From positions 1,860,001 to 1,924,000 of the forward strand of contig NZ_CP073696.1 of NCBI RefSeq assembly GCF_025264645.1: a stretch of 64,000 nt of DNA, read 5' to 3'. The notes beneath the pieces are model-generated. The model made no database searches, was not told the DNA's origin, and saw nothing but the letters and a program-made list of their open reading frames with translations. Each line of letters starts with the position of its first letter. Position 1 is the first letter of the stretch. Positions 35,657 to 60,591 of the stretch are shown here, piece after piece. Source of the DNA: Edaphobacter lichenicola (GTDB lineage Bacteria > Acidobacteriota > Terriglobia > Terriglobales > Acidobacteriaceae). The position numbers and the translations under genes were made by a program.

Positions 35657-35784
35657 AGAACGAACCAGCAGCCGAATCGGCTTTCAAATGATGATTCGCA
35701 AGTCTGCGGTATCGTGGGCAAGACATTCAGTTTTTTCGTTCGGGAAGAACTGTTAGACTTGGCCATCCCTTCATGAGAGGCACG

Positions 35785-37266: not shown

Positions 37267-37529
37267 CCAACACCAGAAATTGCCTGACTTACTTGACGCC
37301 TCTTTGTCTACTATGTGCAGGGTGTGGACATGCGCCCTCTGTAGATATCATTGGTTCTTTCTTCCCGGTGTGGATGCTCTGTTTATCGGCTGCAATACTA
37401 CTCGCGTTCGTCGTCCGGCATTTGCTGGTCCGATATCATCTGGAGTCCGATGTTGGTCCCGTTGCACTCTTCTACCCCAGCGTGGTCGTTCTTTTCACCA
37501 GCTTGCTTTGGCTGATTTTTTTTCGGTAA
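37263..37529 (+). CDS. ytcA: YtcA-family small inner-membrane lipoprotein
   Basis: 88 residues. The N-terminus ends in a lipobox (LLCAGCGHAPS). The family hallmark IIGSFFPVWMLC follows, then two transmembrane helices (LSAAILLAFVVRHLL and VALFYPSVVVLFTSLLWLIF). Length and motifs match YtcA, the uncharacterised small protein encoded next to mdtNOP in E. coli. It overlaps the upstream TolC gene by 4 nt and precedes the HlyD gene by 9 nt, so it is surely part of the pump operon. Its biochemical role is unknown; it may help assemble the pump. Confidence 0.8.
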   Translation: MTNTRNCLTYLTPLCLLCAGCGHAPSVDIIGSFFPVWMLCLSAAILLAFVVRHLLVRYHLESDVGPVALFYPSVVVLFTSLLWLIFFR

Positions 37530-37538
37530 GGAGAACCA

Positions 37539-38738: not shown

Positions 38739-38742
38739 CCGA

Positions 38743-40856: not shown

Positions 40857-41792
40857 TCAGGTGTGACGGATTCGATTGACAACCTTGCGAGCCAGACGGT
40901 CAGGAATAATCGCTTCAGCTTTCACGTTATCGAGCTGCGAGTTCTGTCCAGGAGGCGTGGGCCTCATCCCTAACTTGCGCTCGTAATAATTAAATGCGCG
41001 AGTGCGGCCCAGCGCTCGATCGGCCTTCGTCTCAAAGACGCAGCTATAGGAGATGGATCTGCTCCCGCAAGTCTCGACCCAGTGTGGAGCGTTCTGAGGT
41101 TGGTGGAAGCCATCACCTGCCCTGAGGTTGTAAACCTGTTCTTTTCCTGGGTCGCGTTCCCCCAGGTCGAGTTGGCCAATGCTGACCTTTCCCCGAACGT
41201 AAAAATCCTCGAGATCCTCTTCGCGCACATCGTCTGGAGAATAGACATGGTAGGTCTTATCTCCCTCAATTTGGGTAAAGAATCCAACTTCAGGGTCAAA
41301 ATGAAGTGGCGTTGTGGATGCAGCAGAGGTTATGAATAAGCTGGACTGGATTCGCAGAATCGGTTGATCCCCAAGCCCACCCGGGATGCTGCGAATTTGC
41401 TGGATGATCAGGTCAAGCAGTCTACGGAAGCGATCGTCATGGTTCTCCAAACGCTTGAGCAAGATGCGGGTGGAACGTTCATTAAGCTGATGAATGGCTT
41501 CCTTTGGAGTCAGCTTGATGTGGGGAGCTTCAAAAAAAGCGCTCCCTGCCGTCGCCGCGCTCCCGGCAACATAGTAATCGTTGCTCGCCCCTGTATACCG
41601 ATCCAGCAATTCGGAGATAGAGTCGAACTGGAAGATGTCCAATCGGTGCAAGTTGTGCGTGAACCCGAACGGGGTCTTGTTATACAACGCCTGATAGGAC
41701 TTCGGATCTATATCAAGTTGCATATCCTCGAGGGCAACTCGTGGCAGCACTGTGACATCCGGAGCGGTAGCGATGTTCGAGTTAGCGGACAT
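40857..41792 (-). CDS. JmjC/cupin_8-type Fe(II)/2-oxoglutarate-dependent oxygenase
   Basis: 311 residues. The cupin core keeps the iron triad: the HxD of TPLHFDPEVGFFTQIEGDKT (near residue 165) and a distal His in FHQPQNAPHWVET, with YHVYSPDD between. These proteins usually hydroxylate a side chain of an amino acid or peptide using 2-oxoglutarate and oxygen. The C-terminal tail (GMRPTPPGQNSQLDNVKAEA) resembles that of the divergent neighbour at 42068. GGGAG is 6-7 nt before the ATG. It stands next to the NRPS-PKS genes, so modification of a carrier-bound or finished peptide is plausible but unproven. Confidence 0.8.
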   Translation of the reverse strand: MSANSNIATAPDVTVLPRVALEDMQLDIDPKSYQALYNKTPFGFTHNLHRLDIFQFDSISELLDRYTGASNDYYVAGSAATAGSAFFEAPHIKLTPKEAIHQLNERSTRILLKRLENHDDRFRRLLDLIIQQIRSIPGGLGDQPILRIQSSLFITSAASTTPLHFDPEVGFFTQIEGDKTYHVYSPDDVREEDLEDFYVRGKVSIGQLDLGERDPGKEQVYNLRAGDGFHQPQNAPHWVETCGSRSISYSCVFETKADRALGRTRAFNYYERKLGMRPTPPGQNSQLDNVKAEAIIPDRLARKVVNRIRHT

Positions 41793-42067: not shown

Positions 42068-42976
42068 ATGTCAACTTCTGTTGTTTCGAATGATCTCCTC
42101 GAAGATTGCTGGATCACTACTGACAGTGAGCTGCTGAGTAGCAAGTTTGATCGTGAACACTTCGAAATCACTCACACCTTAACAGAACATCCACTTCTAC
42201 AGATCCCCGAATTGATGGAGTTGGCGGAGCGAACTTTACAGACCAGGCCAGCTGGCATTTACTACGATGCGGGCGATATACGGGTCGACCAGAGATGGGA
42301 TCAAATGCCGAAGAAACAGTTTTCGGTTGTAGAAACGATGAAACGTATAGAGACATGCGGAGCTTGGCTATTGTTCAAAGACGTGCAGCGTGACCCAGAA
42401 TATCGGGCCTTTCTCGGTAGTGGATGGCACAAGATAAAAGCGAAGATCGGCCACAATCTGGAGTCGCAAATCTTACGTGAAGATGCTCTCATCTTCGTCA
42501 CTTCTCCAAAACGCATCGCAACTTACCACATCGATCGCGAATGCAGTTTTTTGTTACAGATCAAGGGGACAAAGACCATTCACATCTTCGATCGCACAGA
42601 TCGAGAAGTACTTCCCGAAGAAGAAATTGAGCGATTCTGGACAGTTGATAATAATGCTCCTGTTTACAAACCGCAGTTTCAAGCTCGCGCTACTTCTTAT
42701 AAGTTACGCGCCGGCACTGGGGTTCATATTCCCGTGAACTGCCCTCACTGGGTTGAAAATGACGACAACATATCCGTCTCCCTGAATGTGAACGTACAGT
42801 TCAAAGACACTCTCCGAGCAAACACGTATCGCGCAAATCATGCCCTTCGAGCCCTTGGCCTTACTCCGAGACCACCAGGTCAGTCTGCTGCAGTGGACTA
42901 CTTTAAATCTCGGTCCATGGTGCCTGTTCTGGCAGCCAAATCTGCGCTCCATAAGTTAAGCTCTCTCAAGAAGTAG
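42068..42976 (+). CDS. JmjC/cupin_8-type Fe(II)/2-oxoglutarate-dependent oxygenase, paralogue
   Basis: 302 residues. HxD is in TYHIDRECSFLLQIKGTKTI (near residue 154), and the distal His is in GTGVHIPVNCPHWVEN. The layout and C-terminal tail (GLTPRPPGQSAAVDYFKSRS) match the divergent gene at 40857-41792, so the two are paralogues. They differ in the region before the iron site, which suggests different substrates. The 275-bp gap between them must hold both promoters. Expected reaction: hydroxylation or another oxidative change of an amino acid or peptide; no substrate can be assigned. Confidence 0.78.
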   Translation: MSTSVVSNDLLEDCWITTDSELLSSKFDREHFEITHTLTEHPLLQIPELMELAERTLQTRPAGIYYDAGDIRVDQRWDQMPKKQFSVVETMKRIETCGAWLLFKDVQRDPEYRAFLGSGWHKIKAKIGHNLESQILREDALIFVTSPKRIATYHIDRECSFLLQIKGTKTIHIFDRTDREVLPEEEIERFWTVDNNAPVYKPQFQARATSYKLRAGTGVHIPVNCPHWVENDDNISVSLNVNVQFKDTLRANTYRANHALRALGLTPRPPGQSAAVDYFKSRSMVPVLAAKSALHKLSSLKK

Positions 42977-43045: not shown

Positions 43046-44467
43046 ATGCGGCTATTCGAAACTATCCTGATTCTTGTTGTAATCGCGGCCGCGCTGGCGC
43101 AAATAGCTGAGATGGCGGATTCTTGGTCCCGATCTCTGATATTTTTAGCTTTCTTACTCGGCACATGGCATATTGTCTACGAAAAGACCTATTGGCAGAT
43201 GTTCCCTGCTCTCGCGGGGTTACTTGTTCTAGTTATTGGGAACTTAGGTCTGCGTCGCCCGCACACTGCGCTCCATCAACCAATGAAGAGACGTTTGGCT
43301 CTTGCGGTTGTTTTGCTCTGCCTGATGAGTTTCGGATTACTTGTGCTTGTGCCGATGTTCGTTCTCCCAAAACCGACCGGCCCGTATCCTGTCGGAACTC
43401 GAATAATTTACCTAAAGGATTCGAGCAGAATTGAGGATGAGGATCAACAACACCCAGGATTGCTTCGCGAGCTTACGGTTCAGATTTGGTATCCGGCCAA
43501 TTATTCGAGCAACCACCTTGCCGCATATCAAAGGCTAGCAGAGACAAATCTCGCCACGTCGTATCGTAGTGTTCTCTGGACAAACTCACGTATCGACGCG
43601 CCCATCACAGGAGAGGGAGGACCTTTTCCTGTTTTACTTTTCAATCACGGATGGGGAGGAAGGCGCACGCAGGATACGTTTTTGACGGAAGATCTTGCGA
43701 GCCACGGTTATGTTGTCGCTGCGATCGATCATACGTATAACGCCGGACGAGTCGCATTGTCAGGTGATCGCGTTATTGATAGCACTAACGGATACGATCC
43801 GATAGACGCTTCAAAGCATACGGCCACAGAGATCAAAAGAACTTGGAATAAAGAACTCCAAAGATGGGTCGAGGACGAAGTGTTTGTTCTTAATGCGTTG
43901 CAAACCGAGAATGCTGATAGCAAAAGCTTTTGGCACGGGCGACTCAATACCGATCGAGCTGGCGCCCTCGGTCACTCGTTCGGCGGGGCTGCTGCAATAC
44001 AGGTCTGCTCTGTTGATCGCCGCATTCGATCCGCACTCAACATGGACGGCTGGACGTTCGGAGACATTCAACATCGCACGTCCGCCCAGCCGACCCTGTT
44101 CATGTACGAAAAGTCAAACCAGCCCCGACAGCAAGATCTGAGCTCTCTGGATGCCGAAGCGCAAACCTTAAATGAATTAGATAAAAATGACGAGAGCGAG
44201 GTCGATGCTAGCCTCAAACAGTATGGCGGATATAAGTTATACGTGAGTAATACCTCACACATGGACTTTACTGATCATCCTTTGATAACTCCCTGGAGTA
44301 ACTGGATACAGCCCAAGCACATCTCTCCCGCGCGAATACAAATGATTATTCGCGCATACGTGCTGGATTTCTTTGATCAGACTATTCAAGGAAAAAAGTC
44401 CAGCTCACTAGAACCTGAAAATCCGAGTCAGTTTCGTGAAGTTCAGGTGGAAAAATGGACGCGCTAA
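43046..44467 (+). CDS. Membrane-anchored alpha/beta hydrolase (PAF-acetylhydrolase-like)
   Basis: 473 residues. The first 115 residues hold three or four transmembrane helices (FETILILVVIAAALAQIAEM, LALAVVLLCLMSFGLLVLVP). The rest is an alpha/beta hydrolase: oxyanion strand FPVLLFNHGWGG, nucleophile elbow GHSFGGAAA (Ser near residue 310), and a late TSHMDFTDHP carrying the probable catalytic His. The arrangement fits the platelet-activating-factor acetylhydrolase/dienelactone-hydrolase group. It is convergent with the C-PCP-TE NRPS gene. It may deacylate or hydrolyse a product of the cluster at the membrane; the substrate is unknown. Confidence 0.78.
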   Translation: MRLFETILILVVIAAALAQIAEMADSWSRSLIFLAFLLGTWHIVYEKTYWQMFPALAGLLVLVIGNLGLRRPHTALHQPMKRRLALAVVLLCLMSFGLLVLVPMFVLPKPTGPYPVGTRIIYLKDSSRIEDEDQQHPGLLRELTVQIWYPANYSSNHLAAYQRLAETNLATSYRSVLWTNSRIDAPITGEGGPFPVLLFNHGWGGRRTQDTFLTEDLASHGYVVAAIDHTYNAGRVALSGDRVIDSTNGYDPIDASKHTATEIKRTWNKELQRWVEDEVFVLNALQTENADSKSFWHGRLNTDRAGALGHSFGGAAAIQVCSVDRRIRSALNMDGWTFGDIQHRTSAQPTLFMYEKSNQPRQQDLSSLDAEAQTLNELDKNDESEVDASLKQYGGYKLYVSNTSHMDFTDHPLITPWSNWIQPKHISPARIQMIIRAYVLDFFDQTIQGKKSSSLEPENPSQFREVQVEKWTR

Positions 44468-44502: not shown

Positions 44503-47082
44503 TTAAGCAGGGTCCTGCCGGTCAAATTTACTGAGGCAGCCATGAATAGTTTTGGCTAATACATCGATTCCCGGCTCCGACAGCACCTGCCAATGATCTC
44601 CCGGTATGTGATGGATTTCGATTCCTTCTTTGAAGATAGGCGACCAACCATTATCGGGGGGTATATTGACGTTCGTCTGTTTTGAGGCCCGAAAAAGAGT
44701 CAGTTTGCCTGGAAATGGTTTTGGACGATAGTTGCGTGCTGCAACGGCATTGATCTCGTGCGTATTTTTCAAAAAGGCAGGAAGTGTAGTGAACAGCTTA
44801 GCGGCGATCGTAGTCATATAGCGCACCCTGCGTTCATCCATGTCTTTGAGAAAAAACTCCGCCCATGCCTTACCACTTCCGTGGCCTTGGTTGCTACGGA
44901 AAAAACCACTAAGCCATCCTCGTTTTTCTAATTTTTCTGATCCACTCTTCTTCGGCATCTCCGGGGTGTAATCTTTGGCTCGTGTATCCAACATTCCTAA
45001 AAGGCCAACTTCTTCGCCAGCGTTGTGTAGCTGTTGGGCCATCTCAAGTACAACAATGCCTCCGAAAGAATACCCGAGAAAATGATACGGTCCATTAGGT
45101 TGAATACGTCGAATCTCTTTCAAATAATGAGCAGCCATGTCCTCCATGCGAAGGAGCGCCGGTTGGTTTGCTTCGAGTGCTTGGGCCTGGACTCCGTACA
45201 CTGGCTGGTCGGCACCAATCCTTGTTGTTAGACCATAAAAATTAACTACATTCCCGCCCGCTCCGTGAACGATATATAGCGGTAGGCGGGTCCCCACAGG
45301 CTGAATCGGCACAAGTGACGTCGCAGTGTTTGGCGCATAACGCCTGCGAACCAGCTCAGCTACAAGCTGGATGGTAGGAGCCGAGATCAAGCTCGCAAGC
45401 CCGAAGCCCATCGAGTAGAGACCATTCATCCGAGTCACGAGCCGGAGAATAGAAAGCGAGCTAACCCCCAACGAAAAAACATTCGTGTCGACAGCGATGT
45501 CTTCGACGGCCAACATAGACCGCCAAAGCTCGAGCAACTGGATCTCAATTGGGTCATTCGTGGTTGCTAGCTGTTCGTCCAATTTCTCCATTATCTCGGC
45601 GCTGTCGACAAATTGCTTCGCTCCGAGAAGTCGTGTGTTTCTCCGGGATGCGGTTCGGTTCAAGACGTCAGGCAAAGTGGCAGGAAGAAAATCGTCCGCC
45701 GAAGCCATCTTCTCTAATTCGATTGAAGGCTCCTGCACCGCTGAGTCAAGCAATGCATTAAAGCTTTTCAGATAGCGTTGAATCGTCGTCGAGCGGAAGT
45801 AGTTGGGATTGTATTCGAGTTGTAGCCGCGGCCCTTCTTCTATTCGATCGACGATCGCGAACATCCATTCAAAGACTGCCCCGGGACTCATTGATCGTAA
45901 AGGCACAATCTCTAGACCGGCAACGCGCTGAGTCACCATGAAAGATTTTTGATAAAGAAAGAAGATTGGGATCTCAAACGAAGTATTGTTGTGCGAAAAA
46001 TGTGAGTCGTATATTAATTCTTCAAACGGAAGCTCCTGATTTTCGTAGGCTCCGAGCGTCCAGTCCTGAACCTTCGTAAGTAGAGAACGGAAAGTCTCGT
46101 GCGGCTCTATCAGAACGCGTAGAACTTGGATGTTCATAAAGAGACCGATCAGATCTTCCGTATCTTCGTTTCGATTCGCACATGGAGAACCAATGACAAT
46201 ATCTCGTTGCCCGGTAAATCGGTGAAGTAAAGCGCAAAAAATACTGAATAGTAAAATATTCAATGTGACATTTTGATCTTTGCAGAATTTATGAGCTAAC
46301 GCAGTAAGCTCTGGCGAGATCAGAAACGTTTCGATATCTCCCGACTCCGAATCTGTACGTGTGTCGCGCACGTTTTCAGGAGAAGCGTCGTGCGGTAGCT
46401 CGATGCGGCTAAAATCGCTGCCGAGGGTCTTATGCCAGAATTCGAGTGAAGCCTCTGCGGCTTCACTCTTTCGCCACTCTTCCTGCCACACCGCAAAATC
46501 TGCAAATTGGATTGGCAACAATGGGAGGACCGGCTGTTTTCTTTCGACCAAAGCTTCATAAAAGACCGCGATATCACGTAGCAAAATACCGAGCGATATG
46601 CCGTCGCAGATAATGTGGTGCATGGTTACGAGTAGTAAATGGTGCTGCGGAGCAAACTTTAGCAGCTTGAGAACGAGAAGCGGGCCGTTGAGTAAGTCCA
46701 TGCGATACGCAGCATGCTCTCGGATAAGAACGCCTGTCTCGGGCGCTTTCACTGCGTCGGGTAAGTGCTGTAAGTCTATAACCGGAAGTGCGACACTGTA
46801 TGGGTTTCCGATTATCTGCGAAAGCTTCCCGTCTACCATCGCAAAGGTGGTTCGCAACATCTCATGACGTTGTACGGCCTGGCTGAAAGCCAAGGCCAAT
46901 AGATCGACGTTCAATTCCCCTCGACATTGCCACATGAGAGGCATGTTTAACGCAGGATTACCGGGGTGCATTTGGTCAAGTGACCAGAAGCGGATCTGCC
47001 CTTGCGTGGCGGGCATGACATACACGTCATCTGCTGGAGGAAGCATCGGATTCAAGACAGAGAGCTCCTCTGAAGCGTTCAT
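44503..47082 (-). CDS. NRPS terminal module: condensation - carrier - thioesterase, no adenylation domain
   Basis: 859 residues. A condensation domain (residues about 20-450) has HHIICDG at 155-161. A carrier domain has FSLGVSSLSI near 540, whose second Ser is the phosphopantetheine site. A type I thioesterase has GYSFGGI (Ser near 672) and a GDHWQ His near 831. The module lacks an adenylation domain, so its carrier must be loaded by another protein or its condensation domain must use a free acceptor. The thioesterase should release the product by hydrolysis or cyclisation. It is the last gene of the three-gene assembly line, 31 bp after the PKS-NRPS gene. Confidence 0.92.
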   Translation of the reverse strand: MNASEELSVLNPMLPPADDVYVMPATQGQIRFWSLDQMHPGNPALNMPLMWQCRGELNVDLLALAFSQAVQRHEMLRTTFAMVDGKLSQIIGNPYSVALPVIDLQHLPDAVKAPETGVLIREHAAYRMDLLNGPLLVLKLLKFAPQHHLLLVTMHHIICDGISLGILLRDIAVFYEALVERKQPVLPLLPIQFADFAVWQEEWRKSEAAEASLEFWHKTLGSDFSRIELPHDASPENVRDTRTDSESGDIETFLISPELTALAHKFCKDQNVTLNILLFSIFCALLHRFTGQRDIVIGSPCANRNEDTEDLIGLFMNIQVLRVLIEPHETFRSLLTKVQDWTLGAYENQELPFEELIYDSHFSHNNTSFEIPIFFLYQKSFMVTQRVAGLEIVPLRSMSPGAVFEWMFAIVDRIEEGPRLQLEYNPNYFRSTTIQRYLKSFNALLDSAVQEPSIELEKMASADDFLPATLPDVLNRTASRRNTRLLGAKQFVDSAEIMEKLDEQLATTNDPIEIQLLELWRSMLAVEDIAVDTNVFSLGVSSLSILRLVTRMNGLYSMGFGLASLISAPTIQLVAELVRRRYAPNTATSLVPIQPVGTRLPLYIVHGAGGNVVNFYGLTTRIGADQPVYGVQAQALEANQPALLRMEDMAAHYLKEIRRIQPNGPYHFLGYSFGGIVVLEMAQQLHNAGEEVGLLGMLDTRAKDYTPEMPKKSGSEKLEKRGWLSGFFRSNQGHGSGKAWAEFFLKDMDERRVRYMTTIAAKLFTTLPAFLKNTHEINAVAARNYRPKPFPGKLTLFRASKQTNVNIPPDNGWSPIFKEGIEIHHIPGDHWQVLSEPGIDVLAKTIHGCLSKFDRQDPA

Positions 47083-47113
47083 AGTTAGTCCTGTCGTCGA
47101 ATGAAATTGTTAT

Positions 47114-50100
47114 TCATTCGCGTATCCCAGTTTGACTGCGATAAGTCTTCCGTGGTGCGACTGCAATTCGTGGTGGGACCTTTACCGTTGTAACCTCTAC
47201 GTCACTTGAATTTCTCAGTTCATTGGACAAAGCCAAGATCGTTCGGTGCTTGAAGATCTGAGCTGCCGTAATGTGCAAACCCTCCTTCTGAGAGCGTGCG
47301 GCGATGCGGAAGATGAGAAGAGAGTCAGCGCCAAGTTCAAAGATACTATCTGTAATACTGACGCGATCGACCATCAGCACCTCCGCCCATATCTCTGCGA
47401 GCTTCTTCTGCTCGACCGTAGAAGGTGGTGTGAACGATCGTTGCGACGAGTGGAGGCCAGATTTGAGAAAGGTCTCCACATCAGGCAGGCTCTTGCGGTC
47501 AATCTTTCCATTCGGAGATCGAGGAAGCTGCGGGAGCGGGAGAAAGACTGCGGGAATCATGTACTCAGGAAGCGTGTCAGTAAGCATCGTGACTAAATCT
47601 GCAGTGAGTGCAGTGGCATGCTCAGCCGAATTGCCAGCGTCGACGTAAGCTACAAGACGAGTGATCGATGCTCCAGCACTTTGACTCGTATGTGCCACCA
47701 CTACGGACTCGCGCACGGCCGGATGACGATTCAACGCGGCCTCAATCTCTCCTAGTTCAATACGGTAGCCACGAATTTTGACTTGAAAATCCGTTCGGCC
47801 GAGCAACTCGACTCGCGCTTGGCCAGAGGAGTTCACACGCCAGCGTCCCAAGTCACCGGTTTTATAGATCCGACCCTCAGTAAATGGGTTTGGCAGAAAG
47901 CGCTCGGCGGTCAAATCTAGCCGCTTCCAATAGCCGCGCGCCAATCCCCTGCCCCCAATATACAGTTCGCCTACTACTCCGACAGGTACGGGCTGCAGGC
48001 GTTGATCCAGTAAATAAAATTGCGTGTTCGATATAGGTGGTCCGATCAATAGCGGTCCTGTTTCACTAACGACTCGAGTCGCAGATGACCAGATGGTCGT
48101 CTCGGTTGGGCCGTACATGTTCCACACTTGCTTGCTTCGTTCAACCAGTTGATTAGCAAGATCTCTCGGCAAAGCCTCACCACCGCACAATACCTTCAGC
48201 GGCAACTGGCTTCCCCATCCTGCGTCGATCAACATTCGCCATGTCCCGGGTGTAGCCTGCAGCACAGTCGCTTTACTCTGTTCGAGCAATTGCAGCAAAA
48301 TGTGTCCGTCCATGACTTGATCTTCGGTTGCTAGCACCAGCCGCGCACCCACTAGAAGCGGCAGTAACAGCTCCAAGCCCGCGATGTCGAAGGCGAGCGT
48401 TGTCACTGCAACCAGTACGTCCTCCCGACTGACTCCAGGTTCATGCTCCATCGAGCGCAACAGGTTCATCAATGCCCTGTGTTCGATAGCCACACCCTTC
48501 GGCCTTCCAGTCGTCCCCGATGTGTAAATCACATAGGCAAGAGAATCTGCCGACGCCGTAACTTCGAGCGGAGCGACACTTTCTTCGGCTATCTGTGCAT
48601 CCAGTACTATCGTCTTCACGGTTGTCGTCAGACCAGGCTGTGCAGAGGCGAACGGGCGGCCTACCAGCAGTAGTTTCGTCCCCGCATCCTCTAGCACCAT
48701 CTCCAACCTTTCACTCGGGTGACGAGGGTCCAACGGAACATAGGCACCACCGGCCTTCAGAATGCCAAGCAACGCACCTACCATCTCCACGGATCGTTCA
48801 ACGCAGAGACCCACCAGATCGCCGGGCTTCAGCCCCTCACGCAGCAGTCGATGAGCAATACGATTTGCATAGTCGTCGAGATTTTTTCTCGTCCAACTCG
48901 ATTTACCACTTTCAACCGCGATCTCGTCCGCATGCGCGTGTGCCTGTATCTCTATCAATCGGTGTATTGGCAGGAATTCTCCCTCGAAATCCACCTCAGT
49001 CTGGTTCCAGCCCTCCAATATCTCAACCCGGTCTTTCTGGTCCAACAGTTCCAATCCATCTACGTTCACTGTCGCGTCCCGGACAACGCTTGCGAGAAGG
49101 TTGGTATAAAGAAGCATCCAGCGACGAACGGTCTCTTCGTCGAAGAGATCCGTATTGAAGTCACAATCGAACTGAAGATCGCTCTCGGTTTCAATCATGT
49201 TGAGAAACATGTCGGTATTAACAAACTGCTTCGGGTTGGCTTTTATCGTTACTGCCAAGCCATCGAATCCGATGCGTGCCCCAATCTTTTCGAGATTGAA
49301 CTGCACTTCGATCAGCGGGAGGCGACTCGCATCTCTTGGGATCGAGAGCTTGTGAAGCAAGCTGCCGTATGTAAACTCCTGATGATCGAATGCATCGAAC
49401 AGCATGTTGCGTGTAGTAGCAATATGGTCTTTGGCCGTCTCAGTCTCGGTGATTCGACTCAACATTGGCAAAAAGTGTACGCAGTGCCCGACGAGACTTG
49501 CATTCTGGAAGAGCGCTTGTCCGGCGGTAGAGATGCCGACGACAACTTCTTGCTGTCGCGTCAGGCGGTGCAGCAGGAGTTGAAAGCCCGATAACAGCGT
49601 TATGTATAGAGTGCATCCAAGCTTGGTACTGACGTCCTTCAAATCGTTATACAGCCCAGAACCGAGACTGCCCTTCAGAGTCGCGCCACGGTAACTCTTG
49701 TTCGTTGGACGCGGCCGGTCGGTGGGCAACTCAAGCACCGGTGCAAGGCCTGTGAATTGCTTTACCCAAAAGGCCTCATTATCTGTAAATTCGCCCGAGC
49801 GGTGACGTGTCTGCTCCTGAACCGCGTAACTACTGAAAGGCAAAAGAGGAAGCAGCTTCACCGTTGCTTTATCTCTCGCGCCATAGAGTTTACTGACTTC
49901 CTCGAATAGCTGATTGACCGACCATCCATCGAGAACAATATGGTGCGCGGTAAAGAGGAGGACAACATCATCCGCGGAGATCCGAAAGATCGTGACGCGA
50001 GCGAGTGGTCCTTCAGTTAGTGAAAATGGGGTCTTCCCTTCTCGTTTTATCGCATCTTGAACTACTGCTTCGCGAGAACCGACCGTTGGAGTTTCTGGAG

Positions 50101-53100
50101 ACTTGGAAAGATCGAGGTACTCGATGACACCAGTAAAGATCTGAGCAATCATGAGCGACTCGCCATCCACACTGATCCTGCTTCGCAACGTATCGTGCCG
50201 TGCAAACACCAATTCCAGTGCTCGCTGCAGTTCCTGCTCCTTCACATCTCCTTGCAACCGTAGGGTGACAGATTCGTTGAAAGCGCAGTTCGCCTCATCA
50301 CCGAGCGCCGCAGCGAAGTATATCTCTCGTTGCGCCTCTGTGATAGGAACCTGCGTAGGATTTTTTAGCAGGGCGGCAGGATGCATTTCAGGCCTTGCTA
50401 CATCTGTGGGAATAACCTTGTGCGTATCGTGGCTGGGAAGCGCGTTGCTCCGCTGCATCTCTTCCACGGTTTCGCGAAACGCCGCCTCAACTGCTGCCAG
50501 ATCCGCATCGGAATGTGCCGTTGTGAGAAAACAGGGATATCCTTCCTGGATGTGAATCCCCTTCTCGCGCATCGCATAGTACAGCAAACTGCCGAGCCGA
50601 GCATCACCATGAAAAGTAAAGTAAAACCAGGATGCAAAGTGATGAATCCTGCTCGGCACTCCTCGCTCAACAAAGAAATTGTCGAGCCTCGTCGCAAGCT
50701 CGGCGGTCTTCCGATTCAAATCTAGCTGGAGTTGCGGCCCTACATCTTTCAGATGTTTGAGCACCGAACGAGCCGCTGCGAGAGCCTGCGGATGTCGGAC
50801 GAAGGTGCCGGCGAAGAAGGTCACGCCAACTTCCGGTATTGACGCATCGCCGTACTGCCAGGCTCCTCCATCGAGTGCGTCCATGAACCGTGCCTTGCCG
50901 GAGAGGACACCAATCGGATAGCCCCCGCCGATCACTTTGCCATAGGTAGCCAGATCTGCGCGAACACCAAATGCCTGCTGCACTCCACCAGGAGCAAGAC
51001 GGAACCCGGTGACAACCTCATCAATGATGAGTGCGATCTCCGCTTGCTCTGTAATCTCCCTCACCGTTTTAATGAATGCAATCGGCTGCAAGCCCGGATT
51101 ACGTGTCTGTACGGGTTCAATGAGCACTGCTGCAATCTCGCTCGCATTCTGTCGTATGTAATCGAGCGACGCATCCGCTCCATATTCAAGTACAACCACG
51201 TTTCCTGTATTTGCTATCGGAATTCCCGGCGCGAGTGGTACCGTGCCACGGGGCGTATTGCGAACCAGCACCTCATCGAATGTTCCATGGTAGTCACCGG
51301 CGAAATAGATGATGCGATCACGTCCTGTAACTGTGCGGGCGACACGAATGGCAGCCATAACCGCTTCGGACCCCGTGTTGCAAAACGTCACCCTATCATT
51401 GCCGGTCAACTCACATATCTGCGCAGCGACCTCGCCTGCCAGCGGAGATTGCGGACCAATAGCGACACCTAACTCGATCTGCTGCCGAACCGCGTCCAGC
51501 ACGAACTGCGGCGAGTGCCCAAACATGATTGCGCCATATCCATTCACGATGTCGATGTATTCGTTGCCATCGACGTCCCATATCCGCGACCCCTTCGCTC
51601 GGTCTGTCACAAGGGGATAGACCATCTCCTTCCACTGCGGGCGAAACCCCGCGACTGCTCGCGGATCCGCCAGATGAACGCGCGCCTTGTCCGTCAAGCC
51701 CTTCGACCCCGGCGTGCGCTTCTCGTACTTCGCAATAAGTGTATCGAGATATTGTTGTTGATCGCTGTCGAGATCCTGCTGAACTCTTGGCTGTAGTGGT
51801 CGATAAGATCCGTGCTTAACTTCAGAGCTTTCGGCTGTTGATGGTACTGGGACTGGCGCAGGTACCGAGGCGACCCCTGGTGCCGGCGAGGCCATCTGCA
51901 CTGTAAGAGCAGGAGCCGAGATACCTGTCGCAGCTCGCAGCGTCAACATCTGTTGCTCGAACATCTTCGACATCATCGCCATCTGCTCGCTAAACAGCCG
52001 TTCCACGGCAGAGCCTGAAGAAGCGGAGGAACCTGTAGAGATCGCCGCTGCCGCAGGTACGCTGGAGGCAACTGCGACTTGCGGCGCGGCAACTGGCGTC
52101 TGCGCGGCTGCTGGAAAGGCATCGGATGGCAGCACGCTATCGAGATACCCAGCAAGACTCGCGATCGTGGAGTATTGTTCCATGATCTGTCGAAACGTTA
52201 GCTTCACTCCAAACTTCTTCTTAAGGCCCTGCGTAGCCTGCGTGAGAAAGAGCGAGTCGAGCCCCAACTCCAAAAACTGGTGGTCGACCTGATCGGGCGT
52301 GATGTCGATCCCGCTAAGCTGGGTAAAAACTTCGGCAACAATGGGCTGCAGGCGCAGCTTACGTTCTGGCATTTGAGCCTCACTCAGTAGTTCAGTTGCA
52401 ACTGAAACAAATTCCTCTTCGCCTCTTGTTTCAAGCGATGCGGAAGTAACAAAAGTTGTTTGCTCATTGGTTGTTGAACCGACCGTGTAAGGTGGTGGCG
52501 CAATCCAATGCAGTTTACGTTCAAAAGGATACGTTGGCAGCGGAACGCGGGATCGCTGCTCCGATGCGTAGACCTCTGTCCAATTTGGAGCGGCACCGGC
52601 CATCCAGAGCTGTCCTAGTGCCTCTTGAAGTGAGCCCGCTTCCGCAGGAGACTGTTCATCACGTTGCGACAATGATGAGATGATGATGGATTCGTTACCG
52701 TTCGGCTGCTGACGCGCCAGCGTGGACAACGTACTTCCCGGCCCCACCTCCAGCAATATCTGCGGAGCCGACATCAAGGTTTTAAGCGCATCGGCAAAGC
52801 GAACCGGATTGCGAACCTGTTCGGACCAGAAGCGAGCACTTGTCGCCTGCTCCGGCAAAATCCATGTGCCGGTAAAACTCGAAACATAAGGACGGTAAGG
52901 TGGACGCAGTGAAACCTTTGCTACCTCCGCTTCAAACGCCGACAGCATTGGATCCATCATCGACGAATGAAATGCGTGTGATGTGCGAAGCCTTCGGAAG
53001 AGCGCTCCATCTGACGTGAGCCTCTGTTTCAGAAGTTCGATTGCTTCGATAGGTCCAGCAAGAACGCTCAGCTTCGGAGCATTCAGGGCAGCCAGCGAGA

Positions 53101-55198
53101 TATCTTCGGAGAGATATGGCTGAAGCTCCGCCTCGCTCAGCCTTACTCCGACCATCCCACCGCGCGCCATCTCCTGCATCATTCGCCCACGAATACTTAC
53201 CAGGCGCAGTGCGTCCTCCCGACTCATGACTCCCGCCAGAACCGCAGCTACATATTCGCCGATGCTGTGACCCGCCATCGTGCGTGGTTCAATTCCCCAC
53301 GACTGCCACAACTTCGCCATCGCGAATTCAGTTACAAAGATTCCCGTCTGCGCGAATTGAGTCTGTTGGATTCGTTCGGCTGCTTCAGGCGTCGTGCTGT
53401 CGGCCGGAAAGAGAACACCGCGAATATCGTGGCCCATTAACGGTAAGAGGATCTCAGCACACTCGTCTACTTGCTGGCGATAGAGGGCCTCCGTAGCATA
53501 GAGCGAGCTGCCCATCCCCGCGAACTGTGAGCCTTGCCCTGGAAAAAGAAAGACCACCTCGGGTCGTCTTGCCGGTGCAACTCGAGTCGTCTGCGGGTTG
53601 GCCGACTGCAATTTTGTAATCGCATCTTCGGCACTCGCACAAACAAATGTGGCGCGATAGTCGAACGCTTTTCTTCCGACGGCCAAGGTATAAGCCACGT
53701 CTTCAATCGGAAGCTCTGGATGCAACTGCAGAGACTGAGCGAGATTTTCAATAGCCGCATTGAGCGCAGGTTGAGATCTCGCGGAGAGACAAAGCACTTG
53801 AGCCGAACGGGGAGAAACCGTCGAAATTATCGGCGGCGGTGCCTCTTCCATGACGATATGTGCGTTCACCCCACCCACTCCGAACGCGCTCACCCCAGCG
53901 CGTCGTGGTCCGTCCGAGCGCCAGGGGCTCAACTCACGGTTCACATAGAAAGGAGAGTTCGCAAAATCAATATTTGGATTTGGCGTTTCAAACTTCGCCA
54001 GCGGAGGCAGCGTCGCCTTACTCAGCGAGATCGCAGTTTTGATCACGCCTGTCACACCAGCCGCTGCGTCAAGATGCCCCACATTTGCCTTCGCAGTCCC
54101 GATCGCACAGAAGCCCGAATCCTCCGTGCTTAGCCGGAATGCCTTCGTAAGCGCCGCAACCTCAATCGGATCCCCGAGCGGCGTCGCCGTGCCATGGGCT
54201 TCAATATAGGTGATCGTGCGTGCGTCTATCCCCGCCATCGCCTGAGCGGCAGCAATTACGCCCGACTGACCATCCACGCCGGGCGCCATGTAACCCGCCT
54301 TCATCGAACCGTCATTGTTCACGCCAAAGCCACGGATCACCGCCGTGATGTGGTCCCGATCCGCGATGGCATCTTCCAGACGCTTCAACACGACCACTCC
54401 TGCGCCATGACTAAAGACAGTGCCCGTTGCCGCAGCATCGAATGGTCGGCAGAGCCCATCTTTCGATCCAATGCTTCCTTCGGAGTACATATGTCCACGC
54501 CTTTGCGGAAACGTAATCGAGACGCCACCAGCCAGCGACATGTCGCATTGATAGTTCAGCAGACTTTGACTTGCCTGACAGATTGCAACCAAAGATGTGG
54601 CGCAGGCAGACGCCACACTGATGCACGGGCCACGGAGATTCAACTTGTAGGCAACACGAGTCGTCAGAAAGTCTTTGTCGTTCCCCATGAACGACCTAAA
54701 TTCACCAACCTGATAGCTTCCCGTCAACTCATCGATAAACGCTCGGTCGTGGCACAGGTTCGCTAAAAGATAAGTATTCAGGCTACATCCTGCAAAGAGG
54801 CCAATTTGTCCGGCGTAGCTCGATGAGTCGTAACCTGCATCTTCCAATGCGTTCCAGCATGTCTCGAGAAAGATACGATGCTGAGGGTCCATACTCTCAG
54901 CATCACGTGGCGAAATGCCGAAGAACTCTGCATCGAACATGCCAGGATCCTTTAGCACGCCGCGTGCAGCAACATAGTCTGGACCATTTTCGAGGCCCGC
55001 ACTGCTTCTCACCTCAAGCTCCGCAGGCGAAAAATGAGAGATCGAACTCTTTCCGGCAGCAACATTTTGCCAAAATGTCGCCACGTTAGGTGCTCCCGGA
55101 AACTGCCCCGCCATGCCGATGATGGCGATGCCTTCCAACAGCTGCTCTAGAGGCTGGTGTTCCGTCAAACTAGTTGTTTCGTTCAACCTGTCGCTCAT
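47114..55198 (-). CDS. Hybrid PKS-NRPS: KS - AT - ACP - aminotransferase - C - A - PCP
   Basis: About 2,694 residues. The ATG at 55198 overlaps the upstream stop (ATGA), so the longer frame is rejected. Approximate domains: ketosynthase 20-450 (Cys in SACATSLVA, HGTATP, NVGHLD); acyltransferase 550-840 (GHSIGEY, HAFH = malonyl type); ACP near 978 (LGLDSL); Ala/Pro linker; class III PLP aminotransferase 1190-1580 (YGKVIGGGYPIG); condensation 1615-2060 (HHIVLDG); adenylation 2080-2570; PCP near 2622 (LGADSL). The A-domain code reads D-I-L-Q-L-G-M-I-W-K, a glycine code. The aminotransferase should turn the new beta-keto group into a beta-amine, as in MycA and McyE. No KR, DH or MT domain. Confidence 0.93.
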   Translation of the reverse strand: MSDRLNETTSLTEHQPLEQLLEGIAIIGMAGQFPGAPNVATFWQNVAAGKSSISHFSPAELEVRSSAGLENGPDYVAARGVLKDPGMFDAEFFGISPRDAESMDPQHRIFLETCWNALEDAGYDSSSYAGQIGLFAGCSLNTYLLANLCHDRAFIDELTGSYQVGEFRSFMGNDKDFLTTRVAYKLNLRGPCISVASACATSLVAICQASQSLLNYQCDMSLAGGVSITFPQRRGHMYSEGSIGSKDGLCRPFDAAATGTVFSHGAGVVVLKRLEDAIADRDHITAVIRGFGVNNDGSMKAGYMAPGVDGQSGVIAAAQAMAGIDARTITYIEAHGTATPLGDPIEVAALTKAFRLSTEDSGFCAIGTAKANVGHLDAAAGVTGVIKTAISLSKATLPPLAKFETPNPNIDFANSPFYVNRELSPWRSDGPRRAGVSAFGVGGVNAHIVMEEAPPPIISTVSPRSAQVLCLSARSQPALNAAIENLAQSLQLHPELPIEDVAYTLAVGRKAFDYRATFVCASAEDAITKLQSANPQTTRVAPARRPEVVFLFPGQGSQFAGMGSSLYATEALYRQQVDECAEILLPLMGHDIRGVLFPADSTTPEAAERIQQTQFAQTGIFVTEFAMAKLWQSWGIEPRTMAGHSIGEYVAAVLAGVMSREDALRLVSIRGRMMQEMARGGMVGVRLSEAELQPYLSEDISLAALNAPKLSVLAGPIEAIELLKQRLTSDGALFRRLRTSHAFHSSMMDPMLSAFEAEVAKVSLRPPYRPYVSSFTGTWILPEQATSARFWSEQVRNPVRFADALKTLMSAPQILLEVGPGSTLSTLARQQPNGNESIIISSLSQRDEQSPAEAGSLQEALGQLWMAGAAPNWTEVYASEQRSRVPLPTYPFERKLHWIAPPPYTVGSTTNEQTTFVTSASLETRGEEEFVSVATELLSEAQMPERKLRLQPIVAEVFTQLSGIDITPDQVDHQFLELGLDSLFLTQATQGLKKKFGVKLTFRQIMEQYSTIASLAGYLDSVLPSDAFPAAAQTPVAAPQVAVASSVPAAAAISTGSSASSGSAVERLFSEQMAMMSKMFEQQMLTLRAATGISAPALTVQMASPAPGVASVPAPVPVPSTAESSEVKHGSYRPLQPRVQQDLDSDQQQYLDTLIAKYEKRTPGSKGLTDKARVHLADPRAVAGFRPQWKEMVYPLVTDRAKGSRIWDVDGNEYIDIVNGYGAIMFGHSPQFVLDAVRQQIELGVAIGPQSPLAGEVAAQICELTGNDRVTFCNTGSEAVMAAIRVARTVTGRDRIIYFAGDYHGTFDEVLVRNTPRGTVPLAPGIPIANTGNVVVLEYGADASLDYIRQNASEIAAVLIEPVQTRNPGLQPIAFIKTVREITEQAEIALIIDEVVTGFRLAPGGVQQAFGVRADLATYGKVIGGGYPIGVLSGKARFMDALDGGAWQYGDASIPEVGVTFFAGTFVRHPQALAAARSVLKHLKDVGPQLQLDLNRKTAELATRLDNFFVERGVPSRIHHFASWFYFTFHGDARLGSLLYYAMREKGIHIQEGYPCFLTTAHSDADLAAVEAAFRETVEEMQRSNALPSHDTHKVIPTDVARPEMHPAALLKNPTQVPITEAQREIYFAAALGDEANCAFNESVTLRLQGDVKEQELQRALELVFARHDTLRSRISVDGESLMIAQIFTGVIEYLDLSKSPETPTVGSREAVVQDAIKREGKTPFSLTEGPLARVTIFRISADDVVLLFTAHHIVLDGWSVNQLFEEVSKLYGARDKATVKLLPLLPFSSYAVQEQTRHRSGEFTDNEAFWVKQFTGLAPVLELPTDRPRPTNKSYRGATLKGSLGSGLYNDLKDVSTKLGCTLYITLLSGFQLLLHRLTRQQEVVVGISTAGQALFQNASLVGHCVHFLPMLSRITETETAKDHIATTRNMLFDAFDHQEFTYGSLLHKLSIPRDASRLPLIEVQFNLEKIGARIGFDGLAVTIKANPKQFVNTDMFLNMIETESDLQFDCDFNTDLFDEETVRRWMLLYTNLLASVVRDATVNVDGLELLDQKDRVEILEGWNQTEVDFEGEFLPIHRLIEIQAHAHADEIAVESGKSSWTRKNLDDYANRIAHRLLREGLKPGDLVGLCVERSVEMVGALLGILKAGGAYVPLDPRHPSERLEMVLEDAGTKLLLVGRPFASAQPGLTTTVKTIVLDAQIAEESVAPLEVTASADSLAYVIYTSGTTGRPKGVAIEHRALMNLLRSMEHEPGVSREDVLVAVTTLAFDIAGLELLLPLLVGARLVLATEDQVMDGHILLQLLEQSKATVLQATPGTWRMLIDAGWGSQLPLKVLCGGEALPRDLANQLVERSKQVWNMYGPTETTIWSSATRVVSETGPLLIGPPISNTQFYLLDQRLQPVPVGVVGELYIGGRGLARGYWKRLDLTAERFLPNPFTEGRIYKTGDLGRWRVNSSGQARVELLGRTDFQVKIRGYRIELGEIEAALNRHPAVRESVVVAHTSQSAGASITRLVAYVDAGNSAEHATALTADLVTMLTDTLPEYMIPAVFLPLPQLPRSPNGKIDRKSLPDVETFLKSGLHSSQRSFTPPSTVEQKKLAEIWAEVLMVDRVSITDSIFELGADSLLIFRIAARSQKEGLHITAAQIFKHRTILALSNELRNSSDVEVTTVKVPPRIAVAPRKTYRSQTGIRE

Positions 55199-57189
55199 GA
55201 TGCTATGCCCTTCGTCGCACGGGCCCGAGCGAACGCGCCTCTTGCTTTTTGTGCCTGCTGCTGAACGACGCTTCTCTCCGATGAGGAAGGTTTGTCGTTC
55301 GAAAGACGCTTTGCCAATGACCGTACAGTCGGGCACTCAAACATTATCGTGACCGGGATCGGCATTTCGAACTGCGCTTGCAAACGTAGGTGAGCGTTGA
55401 TCAACAGCAACGAGGTTCCGCCACAATCGAAAAAATTGTCATCTGGTCCAATTCGTAGAAGACCAAGAACATCCTCGAAGATTCGTGCTACCCGCTCCTC
55501 TATTCCAGACAATGATTGCGGAATCTCTCGCTCTCTCGAGACGAACATCATTGAAGGCATAGGCAAAGCGGCTTGGTCTAATTTGCCATTAACAGTCAAC
55601 GGCATATCCGTTAGCCGCGTGTACGACGAGGGCCTCATATGCGTAGGCAGTCTGCCAGCGAAGAACTCACCCAGTACACGCGCACTCAATTCAATCTCCG
55701 GAGCGGCAACAAAATAAGCAGCAAGCCGATTCCCGCTCCCATCGGCGTGGACAACCACGCACGACTGCTGCACGCCGGGGGCAGCGGCCATTGCGGCCTC
55801 CACCTCTCCGAGTTCGATACGAAAGCCATTGATCTTGACCTGGCTGTCATTCCGTCCGAGATACACCATCTCCCCATCGGGACGCACACGGGCAAGATCA
55901 CCTGATCGATAAAGTCTCGCACCAGGCGACTGCGCGAAGTGATCCACAATAAATCGTTCCTCATTCAGCTGCGGACGATTGAGATAGCCGTGCGTAACGC
56001 CTCCGCCTCCAATGTAAAGCTCCCCTACCTCCCCTTCCGCAACCGGCTTTCCCTCTGCGTCCAGTAGATGAACTTGCATATCGGGAATCGGCACACCAAT
56101 CAGGCTCTCCTGAACTGACTTCGCCTCATCCGCCTTGATGGGTCGATATGTCACATGCACCGTCGTTTCAGTGATGCCATACATGTTCACCAACTGTGGC
56201 GCGGTATCTCCATGCCTCTCGAACCACGGGGCGAGCGTACGATACTGTAGAGCCTCTCCACCGAAGATCACAAGACGCAAAGACAGAGGTGCTGGCGCCG
56301 TACTCTGTTCCACTTGGACCAGCATCGAAAAGGCAGACGGAGTCTGATTCAGCACGGAGACCTGTTCCGCAGAGAGAAGACTATAAAAATCTCTCGGCGA
56401 ACGACTCACCGCGAACGGAACGATCACGAGCCGGCCACCGGTGAGCAGGCATCCCCATATCTCCCACACGGAAAAGTCGAACGCGATCGAATGAAACATC
56501 GTCCAAACGTCGTTCGAATTAAAATGAAACCACTGCTCCGTTTGATCCAGGAGTCGAATAACATTCCTGTGCGATACCATCACACCCTTCGGCTTCCCTG
56601 TCGAACCGGAGGTATACATCAGGTACGCAAGATCGTCGTCGGTGGCGGCAAGTTGGGGATTTTCGGGCTTTGGAGTGGACCCCTCGGACGTGAGAAGCTC
56701 ATCCAGTCTCAACTCCGCTACCGACAGCCTTCGAAACTGATCGGAAAGACCAGCAGCAAGCGATGTTGTCGTCATAATGGCGACCGGTCGCGCATCCTCA
56801 AGCATATCAAGTACCCGAGCTGCAGGATATTTCGAGTCAATCGGTAGATAAGCTCCCCCAGCTTTGAGAGTGCCAAGTATAGCTGTCAGCATCTCAGGCG
56901 ATCGATCCAAATAGATCGCAACGAACGCATTGGTTCGCACACCCGTCTCACGCAGATGCTCCGCGAGACGATTCGCCTGTGCATTCAGTGTGCCGTAGGT
57001 TTGGCTGACCGTCCCGCAGACAGCAGCAACCCTGTCGGGATCTTCCGCAGCGACTCTTTCGAAACGACTCACAATCGTTTCGATAACCTTATTGCCGGAT
57101 CCATCTTTGACGGATTCTTCTGAAATCTGCAATCGACTCAGAAGTCTCTCCCCAGTGGCCGAATTCTTAGAAAGCCTGTTGTTCTCCAT
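55195..57189 (-). CDS. NRPS loading module: adenylation - carrier, predicted threonine-activating
   Basis: 664 residues. The adenylation domain shows its core motifs: LAYLMYTSGSTGKPKGV, FDFSVWEIWG, NMYGITETTVH, YRSGDLARV and NGKLD. A carrier domain follows (FFDCGGTSLLLI, Ser phosphopantetheine site). The ten specificity positions read D-F-W-N-I-G-M-V-H-K, the standard threonine code. No condensation domain comes before it, so it should start the chain by loading threonine and passing it to the ketosynthase of the next protein. A basic, Gln/Ala-rich tail may be a docking segment. First gene of the operon; GGGG lies 4 nt before the ATG. Confidence 0.93.
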   Translation of the reverse strand: MENNRLSKNSATGERLLSRLQISEESVKDGSGNKVIETIVSRFERVAAEDPDRVAAVCGTVSQTYGTLNAQANRLAEHLRETGVRTNAFVAIYLDRSPEMLTAILGTLKAGGAYLPIDSKYPAARVLDMLEDARPVAIMTTTSLAAGLSDQFRRLSVAELRLDELLTSEGSTPKPENPQLAATDDDLAYLMYTSGSTGKPKGVMVSHRNVIRLLDQTEQWFHFNSNDVWTMFHSIAFDFSVWEIWGCLLTGGRLVIVPFAVSRSPRDFYSLLSAEQVSVLNQTPSAFSMLVQVEQSTAPAPLSLRLVIFGGEALQYRTLAPWFERHGDTAPQLVNMYGITETTVHVTYRPIKADEAKSVQESLIGVPIPDMQVHLLDAEGKPVAEGEVGELYIGGGGVTHGYLNRPQLNEERFIVDHFAQSPGARLYRSGDLARVRPDGEMVYLGRNDSQVKINGFRIELGEVEAAMAAAPGVQQSCVVVHADGSGNRLAAYFVAAPEIELSARVLGEFFAGRLPTHMRPSSYTRLTDMPLTVNGKLDQAALPMPSMMFVSREREIPQSLSGIEERVARIFEDVLGLLRIGPDDNFFDCGGTSLLLINAHLRLQAQFEMPIPVTIMFECPTVRSLAKRLSNDKPSSSERSVVQQQAQKARGAFARARATKGIAS

Positions 57190-57519: not shown

Positions 57520-58302
57520 ATGTTGAGCAACTGGATTCCGGTTGACACGCTTCCCGTCCTGGATGACAACGAAGTACAACTCTGGCGAATTCAGCCAAGC
57601 GCCGCAGCCAATTCGGGCGAGCACTACAACGCGCTCCTCAGTCCGGTCGAACGAGCCCATGCCGAACGATATCGGCACGCTCAGGCACGAGAGCATTTCA
57701 CTATCGGAAGAGCATGCTTAAGGATTCTTTTAGGAAACGCAATCGGCATCGATTCCAACTCCATAAATATCTCGGCCGGTCCTCATGGCAAGCCGGAGAC
57801 TCCTCCCGTTGGTGGACAGAGCATTTTTTTTAATGTCGCCCACTCAAATGACACGATTCTCATCGCACTTGGCCGGCAGGGCGCACTGGGAGTCGACGTC
57901 GAGTACTTTGATCGGAAGACCGATATCATGGAAGTCGCTAGCTGCAACTTCACAGAAGAAGAGACAAACACCCTTGCGTCAACTGCGGATCAGGAGGTGC
58001 GTATCAGGCTCTTCTACCGCTATTGGACCCGCAAGGAGGCAGTTGCAAAGGCCGACGGTCGAGGCCTTCTGCTGTCTTTATCTTCTTTCGATGTATCGCA
58101 TGAGTCGACGCGTCTGCACCCCGTGCGCGTGAGCGATTCTCCTGGCGAGAATGGCACGTTATATTACGTCAGCGATCTTGACCTGGGCACCGAAGCAACT
58201 GGAGCACTAGCCCTCGAATCCTCGAACTGCCGCGTCGCAGAATTCATCTTCCCCTTAGAGGGGTATAGCCGTCCTGCGACGGTTGGCACTCCTTTAGTCT
58301 AG
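57520..58302 (+). CDS. Sfp-type 4'-phosphopantetheinyl transferase
   Basis: 260 residues, normal for the Sfp group. It transfers the phosphopantetheine arm of coenzyme A to carrier-domain serines. Key motifs are FFNVAHSNDTILIAL (substrate His), ALGVDVEYFDR (Mg-binding Asp and Glu) and YRYWTRKEAVAKADGRGL, the WxxKEAxxK signature. It is divergent from the three megasynthase genes and is their obvious activator, since they contain four carrier domains. Sequence after residue 200 is divergent, as is usual. Confidence 0.93.
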   Translation: MLSNWIPVDTLPVLDDNEVQLWRIQPSAAANSGEHYNALLSPVERAHAERYRHAQAREHFTIGRACLRILLGNAIGIDSNSINISAGPHGKPETPPVGGQSIFFNVAHSNDTILIALGRQGALGVDVEYFDRKTDIMEVASCNFTEEETNTLASTADQEVRIRLFYRYWTRKEAVAKADGRGLLLSLSSFDVSHESTRLHPVRVSDSPGENGTLYYVSDLDLGTEATGALALESSNCRVAEFIFPLEGYSRPATVGTPLV

Positions 58303-58324: not shown

Positions 58325-58582
58325 CTACCCCTCGGGCTTCTTATCCATGCTCCGCATCTCCGCCTCCAGCCTCGCATGCAATCGTTCCCTGAAGCCAAGC
58401 GGCAGTTCAAACACTCGCTCATCGGCGGTAAGAATCAATATGTTCCTTGTGGAATCGAGAATCGCTGAACATATCTCGCAGTGTTCCAAATGCCGCTGCA
58501 CGTCTTCCAGCACCGCAGCATCCAGCGTGCCATCCAGATAGCCGGAGATGTGCTCCCAAACATGTTTGCACTCTAGAACCAT
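58325..58582 (-). CDS. Small zinc-finger anti-sigma factor
   Basis: About 85 residues. The ATG at 58582 is chosen because AAGGTGG lies 5 nt upstream; a GTG 9 nt earlier is possible. It carries the anti-sigma zinc motif (Cys near the start, then HLEHCEIC) and has no transmembrane segment, so it is cytoplasmic. It overlaps the 3' end of the sigma gene by about 10 nt, so translation is coupled. It should bind and hold the adjacent ECF sigma factor, with zinc or thiol chemistry as a possible trigger. Confidence 0.85.
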   Translation of the reverse strand: MVLECKHVWEHISGYLDGTLDAAVLEDVQRHLEHCEICSAILDSTRNILILTADERVFELPLGFRERLHARLEAEMRSMDKKPEG

Positions 58583-59666: not shown

Positions 59667-59750
59667 AATCCTTGTCTATTTGTCTTGACTGAAGCATAAA
59701 ATATTGCGCTAGCTGTGGCGCCCAAAGGGTCGTTTCTCAATCTGCATACG

Positions 59751-60512: not shown

Positions 60513-60525
60513 CTACCTCCCCTGT

Positions 60526-60556: not shown

Positions 60557-60591
60557 ATCCTCTCACCATCTACTTCGATTGGGAGCAAGGA

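Follow-up and report, generated by a model that had tools for sequence, protein, structure and literature searches.

A three-gene NRPS-PKS line of Edaphobacter lichenicola predicted to make a beta,gamma-diamino acid peptide, with a terminal module probably served by a shared adenylation domain

The mycosubtilin synthase MycA of Bacillus has the domain order KS-AT-ACP-AMT-C and works from a fatty-acid start, and in the iturin and mycosubtilin lines a fatty-acyl start (AL-ACP) stands before the KS. McyE of microcystin biosynthesis shows the order KS-AT-ACP-AMT-C-A-PCP, carries a C-methyltransferase in its PKS module, extends a polyketide and activates Glu. One adenylation (A) domain of the yersiniabactin synthetase loads several carrier proteins, some of them on another protein, in a chemistry of Cys and heterocyclisation. 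The syringomycin system (SyrB1/SyrC/SyrE) uses a separate Thr A-PCP protein that supplies an A-less terminal module in trans. Guadinomines are natural products with a vicinal diamine from a PKS-NRPS line that uses different precursors, and the beta,gamma-diamino acid shape occurs in protease inhibitors and in metal-binding compounds. A survey of 2013 tabulated NRPS/PKS proteins with PLP domains, with software-predicted units and without compound names in the parts considered here (PMC3870968). These parts include Pedobacter heparinus C6XWU5, with the layout A-CP-KS-AT-CP-PLP1 and the prediction Nrp-Mal-Gly-Pk, as well as proteins of Thiocapsa marina and Salinisphaera shabanensis (PMC3870968).

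Three genes, all on the minus strand, were found at 44503..57189 of the window, the 64,000-nucleotide stretch of Edaphobacter lichenicola DNA analysed here, where the first-pass annotation had located a three-protein NRPS-PKS line. The domain order read there (A-PCP, KS-AT-ACP-aminotransferase-C-A-PCP, C-PCP-TE) was matched by Pfam, as listed below.

55195..57189, minus strand: gene 1, A1-PCP1, 664 aa (Pfam AMP-binding/PP-binding), A1 code DFWNIGMVHK
47114..55198, minus strand: gene 2, KS-AT-ACP-AMT-C2-A2-PCP2 (longest ORF 47114-55336, 2740 aa)
53990..55135, minus strand: KS domain of gene 2 (Pfam ketoacyl-synt), with Cys, HGT and NVGH motifs present
52706..53554, minus strand: AT domain (Pfam Acyl_transf_1), with GHSIGE and HAFH
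52142..52339, minus strand: ACP (Pfam PP-binding), carrier Ser present
50546..51619, minus strand: class-III aminotransferase domain, AMT (Pfam Aminotran_3), closest solved relative MycA (6kfm)
49019..50356, minus strand: condensation domain C2 (Pfam Condensation), HHIVLDG
47504..48952, minus strand: A2 (Pfam AMP-binding), code DILQLGMIWK
47192..47416, minus strand: PCP2 (Pfam PP-binding), carrier Ser present
44503..47082, minus strand: gene 3, C3-PCP3-TE by Pfam, a terminal module without an A domain, 859 aa
45688..47016, minus strand: condensation domain C3 (Pfam Condensation), HHIICDG
45349..45540, minus strand: PCP3 (Pfam PP-binding), carrier Ser kept
44542..45282, minus strand: TE (Pfam Thioesterase), GYSFGG

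The ATG at 55198, which forms an ATGA overlap with the gene 1 stop codon, is most likely the start of gene 2, which would make the protein about 46 aa shorter than its longest ORF. Gene 3 starts 31 bases downstream of the end of gene 2, and in the seven closest relatives the longest ORFs of genes 2 and 3 overlap by 4 bases. Within gene 2, KS-AT-ACP stands directly before Aminotran_3, which is followed by a C domain, and Pfam gave no match to a ketoreductase, dehydratase or methyltransferase domain (the last at E up to 0.001). Since the same three-gene order recurs in other genomes of the genus and in other phyla, a chance arrangement can be excluded.

Substrate codes were taken at ten positions of the aligned A domains, with the code positions those of GrsA. 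A1 carries DFWNIGMVHK, which we take to be a Thr code, and A2 carries DILQLGMIWK, presumably a Gly code. The assignment of Thr and then Gly made at first pass is thus borne out at the level of codes, and both are conserved within the genus, as DFWN[IV]GMVHK in 17/17 lines with A1 in view and as DILQ[LW]G[MV]IWK in 19/19 lines. The HAFH motif claimed for the AT is there too, together with GHSIGE, and is taken to be of the malonyl type. A profile of the AMT matched the aminotransferase of mycosubtilin synthase (MycA, 6kfm) at 519.7 bits; the highest-scoring solved protein of a different kind, a glutamate-semialdehyde aminomutase, reached 227.3 bits. A single-sequence alignment to the MycA domain spans residues 2-436 of 441, and the lysine of TYGK, which we assume to be the PLP lysine, is conserved. 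Beta-amination of a beta-ketone by this MycA-like AMT is therefore predicted for the window line.

The line shares with MycA a class-III beta-aminotransferase homologous over its length and the order KS-AT-ACP-AMT-C, but differs in what precedes the KS, which is a predicted Thr module and not a fatty acid. The iturin/mycosubtilin start is absent from the line, gene 1 being an amino-acid A-PCP with the presumed Thr code. A Thr module before the KS would place two amines on neighbouring carbons, and a vicinal diamine from a PKS-NRPS line is what the window line would have in common with guadinomines. Gene 2 has the KS-AT-ACP-AMT-C-A-PCP order of McyE but lacks its methyltransferase domain.

We put a probability of about 0.6 on the reading that this is a colinear NRPS-PKS line in which one adenylation domain, A2, is shared and whose product is tailored by an oxygenase and a hydrolase. 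A1 would load L-Thr onto PCP1, from which the KS would take it for extension with malonate supplied by the AT, and transamination of the ACP-bound beta-ketone by the AMT would yield a 3,4-diamino-5-hydroxyhexanoyl (aminostatine-like) unit. Next, C2 and A2 would attach Gly, and C3 would attach a second Gly from PCP3 which, module 3 having no A domain, is proposed to be loaded by A2. The TE would release the product as an acid or as a lactam/lactone, the JmjC-like oxygenase cupA would hydroxylate the chain or the product, and the PAF-acetylhydrolase-like (PAF-AH-like) hydrolase would act on either at some stage. The predicted product is 3,4-diamino-5-hydroxyhexanoyl-Gly-Gly, perhaps hydroxylated or cyclised. 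For the two-Gly product we computed C10H20N4O5 with [M+H]+ 277.1506, and for its variants 293.1456 (plus oxygen), 259.1401 (minus water) and 220.1292 (one Gly).

Relatives were compared in two sets. The first comprised 60 same-genus genomes, the window's own included, and the synthetase was present in 19 of them (AMT at E below 1e-170); G021, with a 52% AMT within another line, falls outside the 19. For the second, genome contigs were searched with a profile of the AMT alignment and the best 80 of 581 relatives were kept, same-genus loci included; domains in these wider loci were called by BLAST, and A classes were assigned by specificity code.

The last modules of the window and of stretches from the 18 other synthetase genomes (not reaching gene 1 in G043 and G016) took three forms. 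The window line, seven close relatives and G020 end in C-PCP-TE, and G046, G043 and G031 in C-A-PCP-TE; C-C-PCP-TE was found in G057, G033, G024 (where it spans two ORFs), G010, G003, G037 and G016, the last of which has an additional lone C-PCP-TE gene on a separate short contig. With this lone gene, the A-less C-PCP-TE form occurs at nine further same-genus loci. An assembly fault behind the absent A domain was considered and rejected, because the A-less form recurs and the joint between C3 and PCP3 is short in the four A-less lines compared (about 36 residues in window gene 3). Among the best 80 of 581 wider loci, A-less tails appeared as C-T-TE in nine (two of them same-genus), C-T in eight and C-TE in six, in stretches that may be cut.

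Tandem C domains before PCP-TE, without an A domain, were observed in seven same-genus loci (L036, L038, L040, L042, L044, L046 and L048). The HH of the first of the two is replaced by HQ in six lines and by YQ in one, and the second has HHxxxDA in all seven.

The third-module A domains (A3) of G046, G043 and G031 all bear the Gly code. In an IQ-TREE phylogeny of Gly-type A domains, A3 was sister to the A2 of its own line with support 100 in G043 and 95 in G031; the two also paired, weakly, in G046, with support not returned by IQ-TREE and a FastTree value of 0.40. In the wider set, L093 (99), L096 (100) and L107 (100) likewise showed pairing of their first two Gly domains, but A2 and A3 were unpaired in L052, L054 and L056, which speaks against the shared origin being general. 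In sliding windows over the A region, the DNA identity of A2 and A3 was 71-87% in G043, 57-80% in G031 and 52-81% in G046, and that of the flanking domains was about 63% or less, mostly 35-55%. The grouping of A3 with its own A2 fits either repeated gain of an A2 copy or loss of A3 in some lines combined with gene conversion, and the slot reads as a Gly slot either way.

A domains were then counted across the nine genomes with A-less lines at the TIGR01733 cut-off of 317.4 bits. Exactly two, A1 and A2, lay over it in 8/9, which hold no other NRPS A domain over the cut-off, and the line has more carrier slots than A domains; in G029 many more A domains lie over the cut-off. From the Gly-code A3 of same-genus lines and the two A domains of whole genomes, we infer that A2 loads both PCP2 and PCP3. 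The X left in the Thr-(beta-amino C2)-Gly-X of the first-pass annotation is then probably a second Gly.

It is also conceivable, though unlikely, that module 3 is idle, so that C3-PCP3-TE just passes on and releases the diamino-acyl-Gly, or that the C domain there serves for ring closure or for coupling to a free amine. In 14 of the best 80 of 581 wider loci, T-TE follows straight after the next A domain without a further module, so a product with a single amino acid after the diamino unit would be viable in this family. Against idleness, the HHxxxDG of C3 is kept in 13/13 same-genus lines ending in C-PCP-TE or C-A-PCP-TE, PCP3 of the window retains its Ser, and a Gly-code A domain occupies that slot in three same-genus lines.

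We consider it improbable that an unlinked enzyme charges PCP3 with a different acid, in which case X would not be Gly. The window genome does contain an orphan A-like ORF of 515 aa (L129:3383-4930, minus strand) that scores 311.5 bits against the cut-off of 317.4 and could load PCP3 in that strain. Among the best 80 of 581 wider loci, A2 could be read in 69 and is Gly-type in 47 and not in the other 22. The A domains in the last modules of these more distant relatives include some of Val-type and some without an assignment, so a Gly in the third slot is not universal, which counts against the two-Gly reading as well. In the seven other two-A-domain genomes, however, the next best TIGR01733 match reaches at most 190 bits, and no counterpart of the orphan ORF was found above that score. 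No unlinked NRPS-type A domain is therefore common to these seven, and a free-standing NRPS A domain shared by the A-less genomes was rejected as the loader of PCP3.

The wider loci also bear on whether A1 serves the KS. Among the best 80 of 581, a KS was seen in 72 and an A domain upstream of it in 68, and in 36 of these 68 the two are fused in one polypeptide (the carrier between them was not called in 3/36). A1 of the window, unlike these, is a separate protein from the KS. The fusions mean that the order rests on more than assumed colinearity, and A1-PCP1 most likely supplies Thr to the KS. Of the upstream A domains in the 68 loci, within the same best 80 of 581, 27 were classed as Val-type, 10 as Pro-type and 8 as Thr-type, the rest being unassigned; two of the Thr-type loci (L066 and L080) have a C-C-T stretch between A-T and KS. 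The plan of Thr, malonate, beta-amination and Gly proposed at first pass is accordingly favoured by the conserved codes, the MycA-like AMT and the A-KS fusion in 36/68 loci.

A free-standing Thr A-PCP with an A-less C-PCP-TE end gives the window a superficial syringomycin layout, and an alpha/beta hydrolase, as SyrC also is, adjoins the line, but a SyrB1-like role for gene 1, feeding the terminal module in trans while the KS begins from another substrate, is very improbable and was set aside: by the fused relatives (36/68, best 80 of 581) A1-PCP1 belongs ahead of the KS, G046 and G031 keep the Thr A-PCP despite a Gly-code A domain of their own in module 3, the hydrolase also stands beside lines with a module 3 A domain (L056, L065 and L074), and none of the 26 window proteins that were scanned is a halogenase.

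The genes beside the line, among them those to which tailoring would fall in the shared-A2 reading, are listed below.

42068..42976, plus strand: cupA, JmjC/FIH-like Fe(II)/2-oxoglutarate oxygenase with an HxD...H triad
43046..44467, plus strand: PAF-AH-like alpha/beta hydrolase with a hydrophobic N-terminus (Pfam, co-occurrence)
57520..58302, plus strand: phosphopantetheinyl transferase, PPTase (Pfam)
40857..41792, minus strand: cupB, a second JmjC-like cupin and tentative member, with relatives upstream of A1 in three same-genus lines
35773..40815, plus strand: tripartite efflux genes resembling MdtP/MdtN/MdtO, scoring under the cut-offs of those models

The PPTase likely activates the carrier proteins of the line. 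The cupA and PAF-AH-like genes lie convergent to gene 3, and cupA, a predicted oxygenase, is likely a tailoring enzyme. Its profile matches FIH/JMJD5 structures (FIH at 1.7e-09), its match to Pfam Cupin_8 is under the cut-off of that model, and the HxD...H triad is invariant in 26/26 cupA and cupB sequences and in 15/15 of a second set. Ser311, Asp334 and His405 of the hydrolase are kept in 6/6 aligned sequences, as is Asp324, and its N-terminus resembles, by eye, several membrane helices. Efflux genes like MdtP/MdtN/MdtO were not found beside the related same-genus clusters, and those of the window are possible members.

Clustering of neighbour ORFs, after removal of the duplicates L049 and L050, found, with the window counted, 19 loci with the cupA family, 17 with PAF-AH and 37 with the PPTase. 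A cupin and a hydrolase stand on the same strand between genes 2 and 3 in Acidicapsa (L051), and in Leptolyngbya (L084) the AMT gene shares its last 4 bases with a cupin ORF. Genome-wide, a cupA homologue (E up to 0.001) was present in 17/19 synthetase genomes and 1/41 others (G053), with a Fisher p of 8e-12 that ignores shared ancestry; it is absent from G020 and G031, and some of the 17 hold distant homologues only (33% in G024). The hydrolase is associated with the synthetase system. At E below 1e-80, a threshold picked after the match list had been viewed, it was present in 15/19 synthetase genomes (absent from G003, G016, G020 and G037) and 0/41 others (Fisher p 7e-11, shared ancestry ignored), and when matches up to E 0.001 are admitted, 6/41 genomes without the synthetase show weaker ones. 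In several genomes both genes are unlinked to the synthetase. No shared biosynthetic context was found around the unlinked homologues in the 19 of 20 stretches examined, where the proteins put to Pfam included SOR/SNZ, PGK, a type II secretion protein, OCD, glycosyltransferases and an ABC exporter. If the prediction holds, the oxygenase and the hydrolase, as genome-wide partners, point to tailoring, and a search of the neighbourhood alone misses the unlinked copies.

A divergent pair of cupA-like oxygenases was observed in L138, L139, L140 and L141, near an ABC exporter (by Pfam in L138) and a second shared protein that had no Pfam match (tested in L139). The pair in L141 lies in a genome without the synthetase (G053).

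The relatives among the best 80 of 581 belong to Acidobacteria, Proteobacteria, Verrucomicrobia, Cyanobacteria, Bacteroidota and Myxococcota, and a plan of the Thr/malonate/amination/Gly style, as predicted from their domains, is widespread across phyla, beyond acidobacteria. The proteins in the parts of PMC3870968 considered here resemble the window line in joining an amino acid, malonate and an aminotransferase, often with Gly; a Thr start, as predicted for the window line, an A-less terminal module and a linked oxygenase are not described in its section 7. The novelty for acidobacteria implied at first pass is weakened by this spread and by the related layouts in those parts of PMC3870968. 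No compound from such a line was found in searches of open-licence PMC papers. What sets the window line apart is its unusual end, which is probably one of a shared A domain. Such an A domain, predicted here, would be its likeness to the yersiniabactin synthetase, from which the chemistry differs.

We tentatively suggest, with somewhat less than even confidence, a large, multi-phylum class of beta,gamma-diamino ('aminostatine-like') peptides built from a starter A domain (Val, Pro, Thr or others), malonate, an AMT and usually Gly, of which no described member was found. Within the Thr branch of this class, the terminal module would be run by the Gly A domain upstream, of which copies would have entered or left the last module repeatedly. 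If the shared-A2 reading is true, a three-gene line predicts the exact mass and structure of a beta,gamma-diamino acid peptide, a natural example of which was not found in open-licence PMC papers, and the same reasoning would cover dozens of clusters across several phyla. Lines that have an A domain in their last module and lines that lack one there would be natural pairs for the study of A-domain sharing and module evolution.

On the far side of the PPTase gene, the following features were recorded at 58573-62375, beside the cluster.

58573-59217, minus strand: ECF sigma factor, adjoining the NRPS-PKS cluster
59190-59666, minus strand: DoxX, adjoining the NRPS-PKS cluster
60228-60512, plus strand: ORF of 94 aa, signal-like at its start, whose tail is rich in Gly and Lys and has four Cys
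60592-61485, plus strand: MbnB/TglH/ChrH enzyme (MNIO-type)
61482-62375, plus strand: DUF2063 partner of an MNIO-type RiPP locus

These genes form an MNIO-type RiPP locus, which we take to resemble a bufferin-type copper peptide locus.
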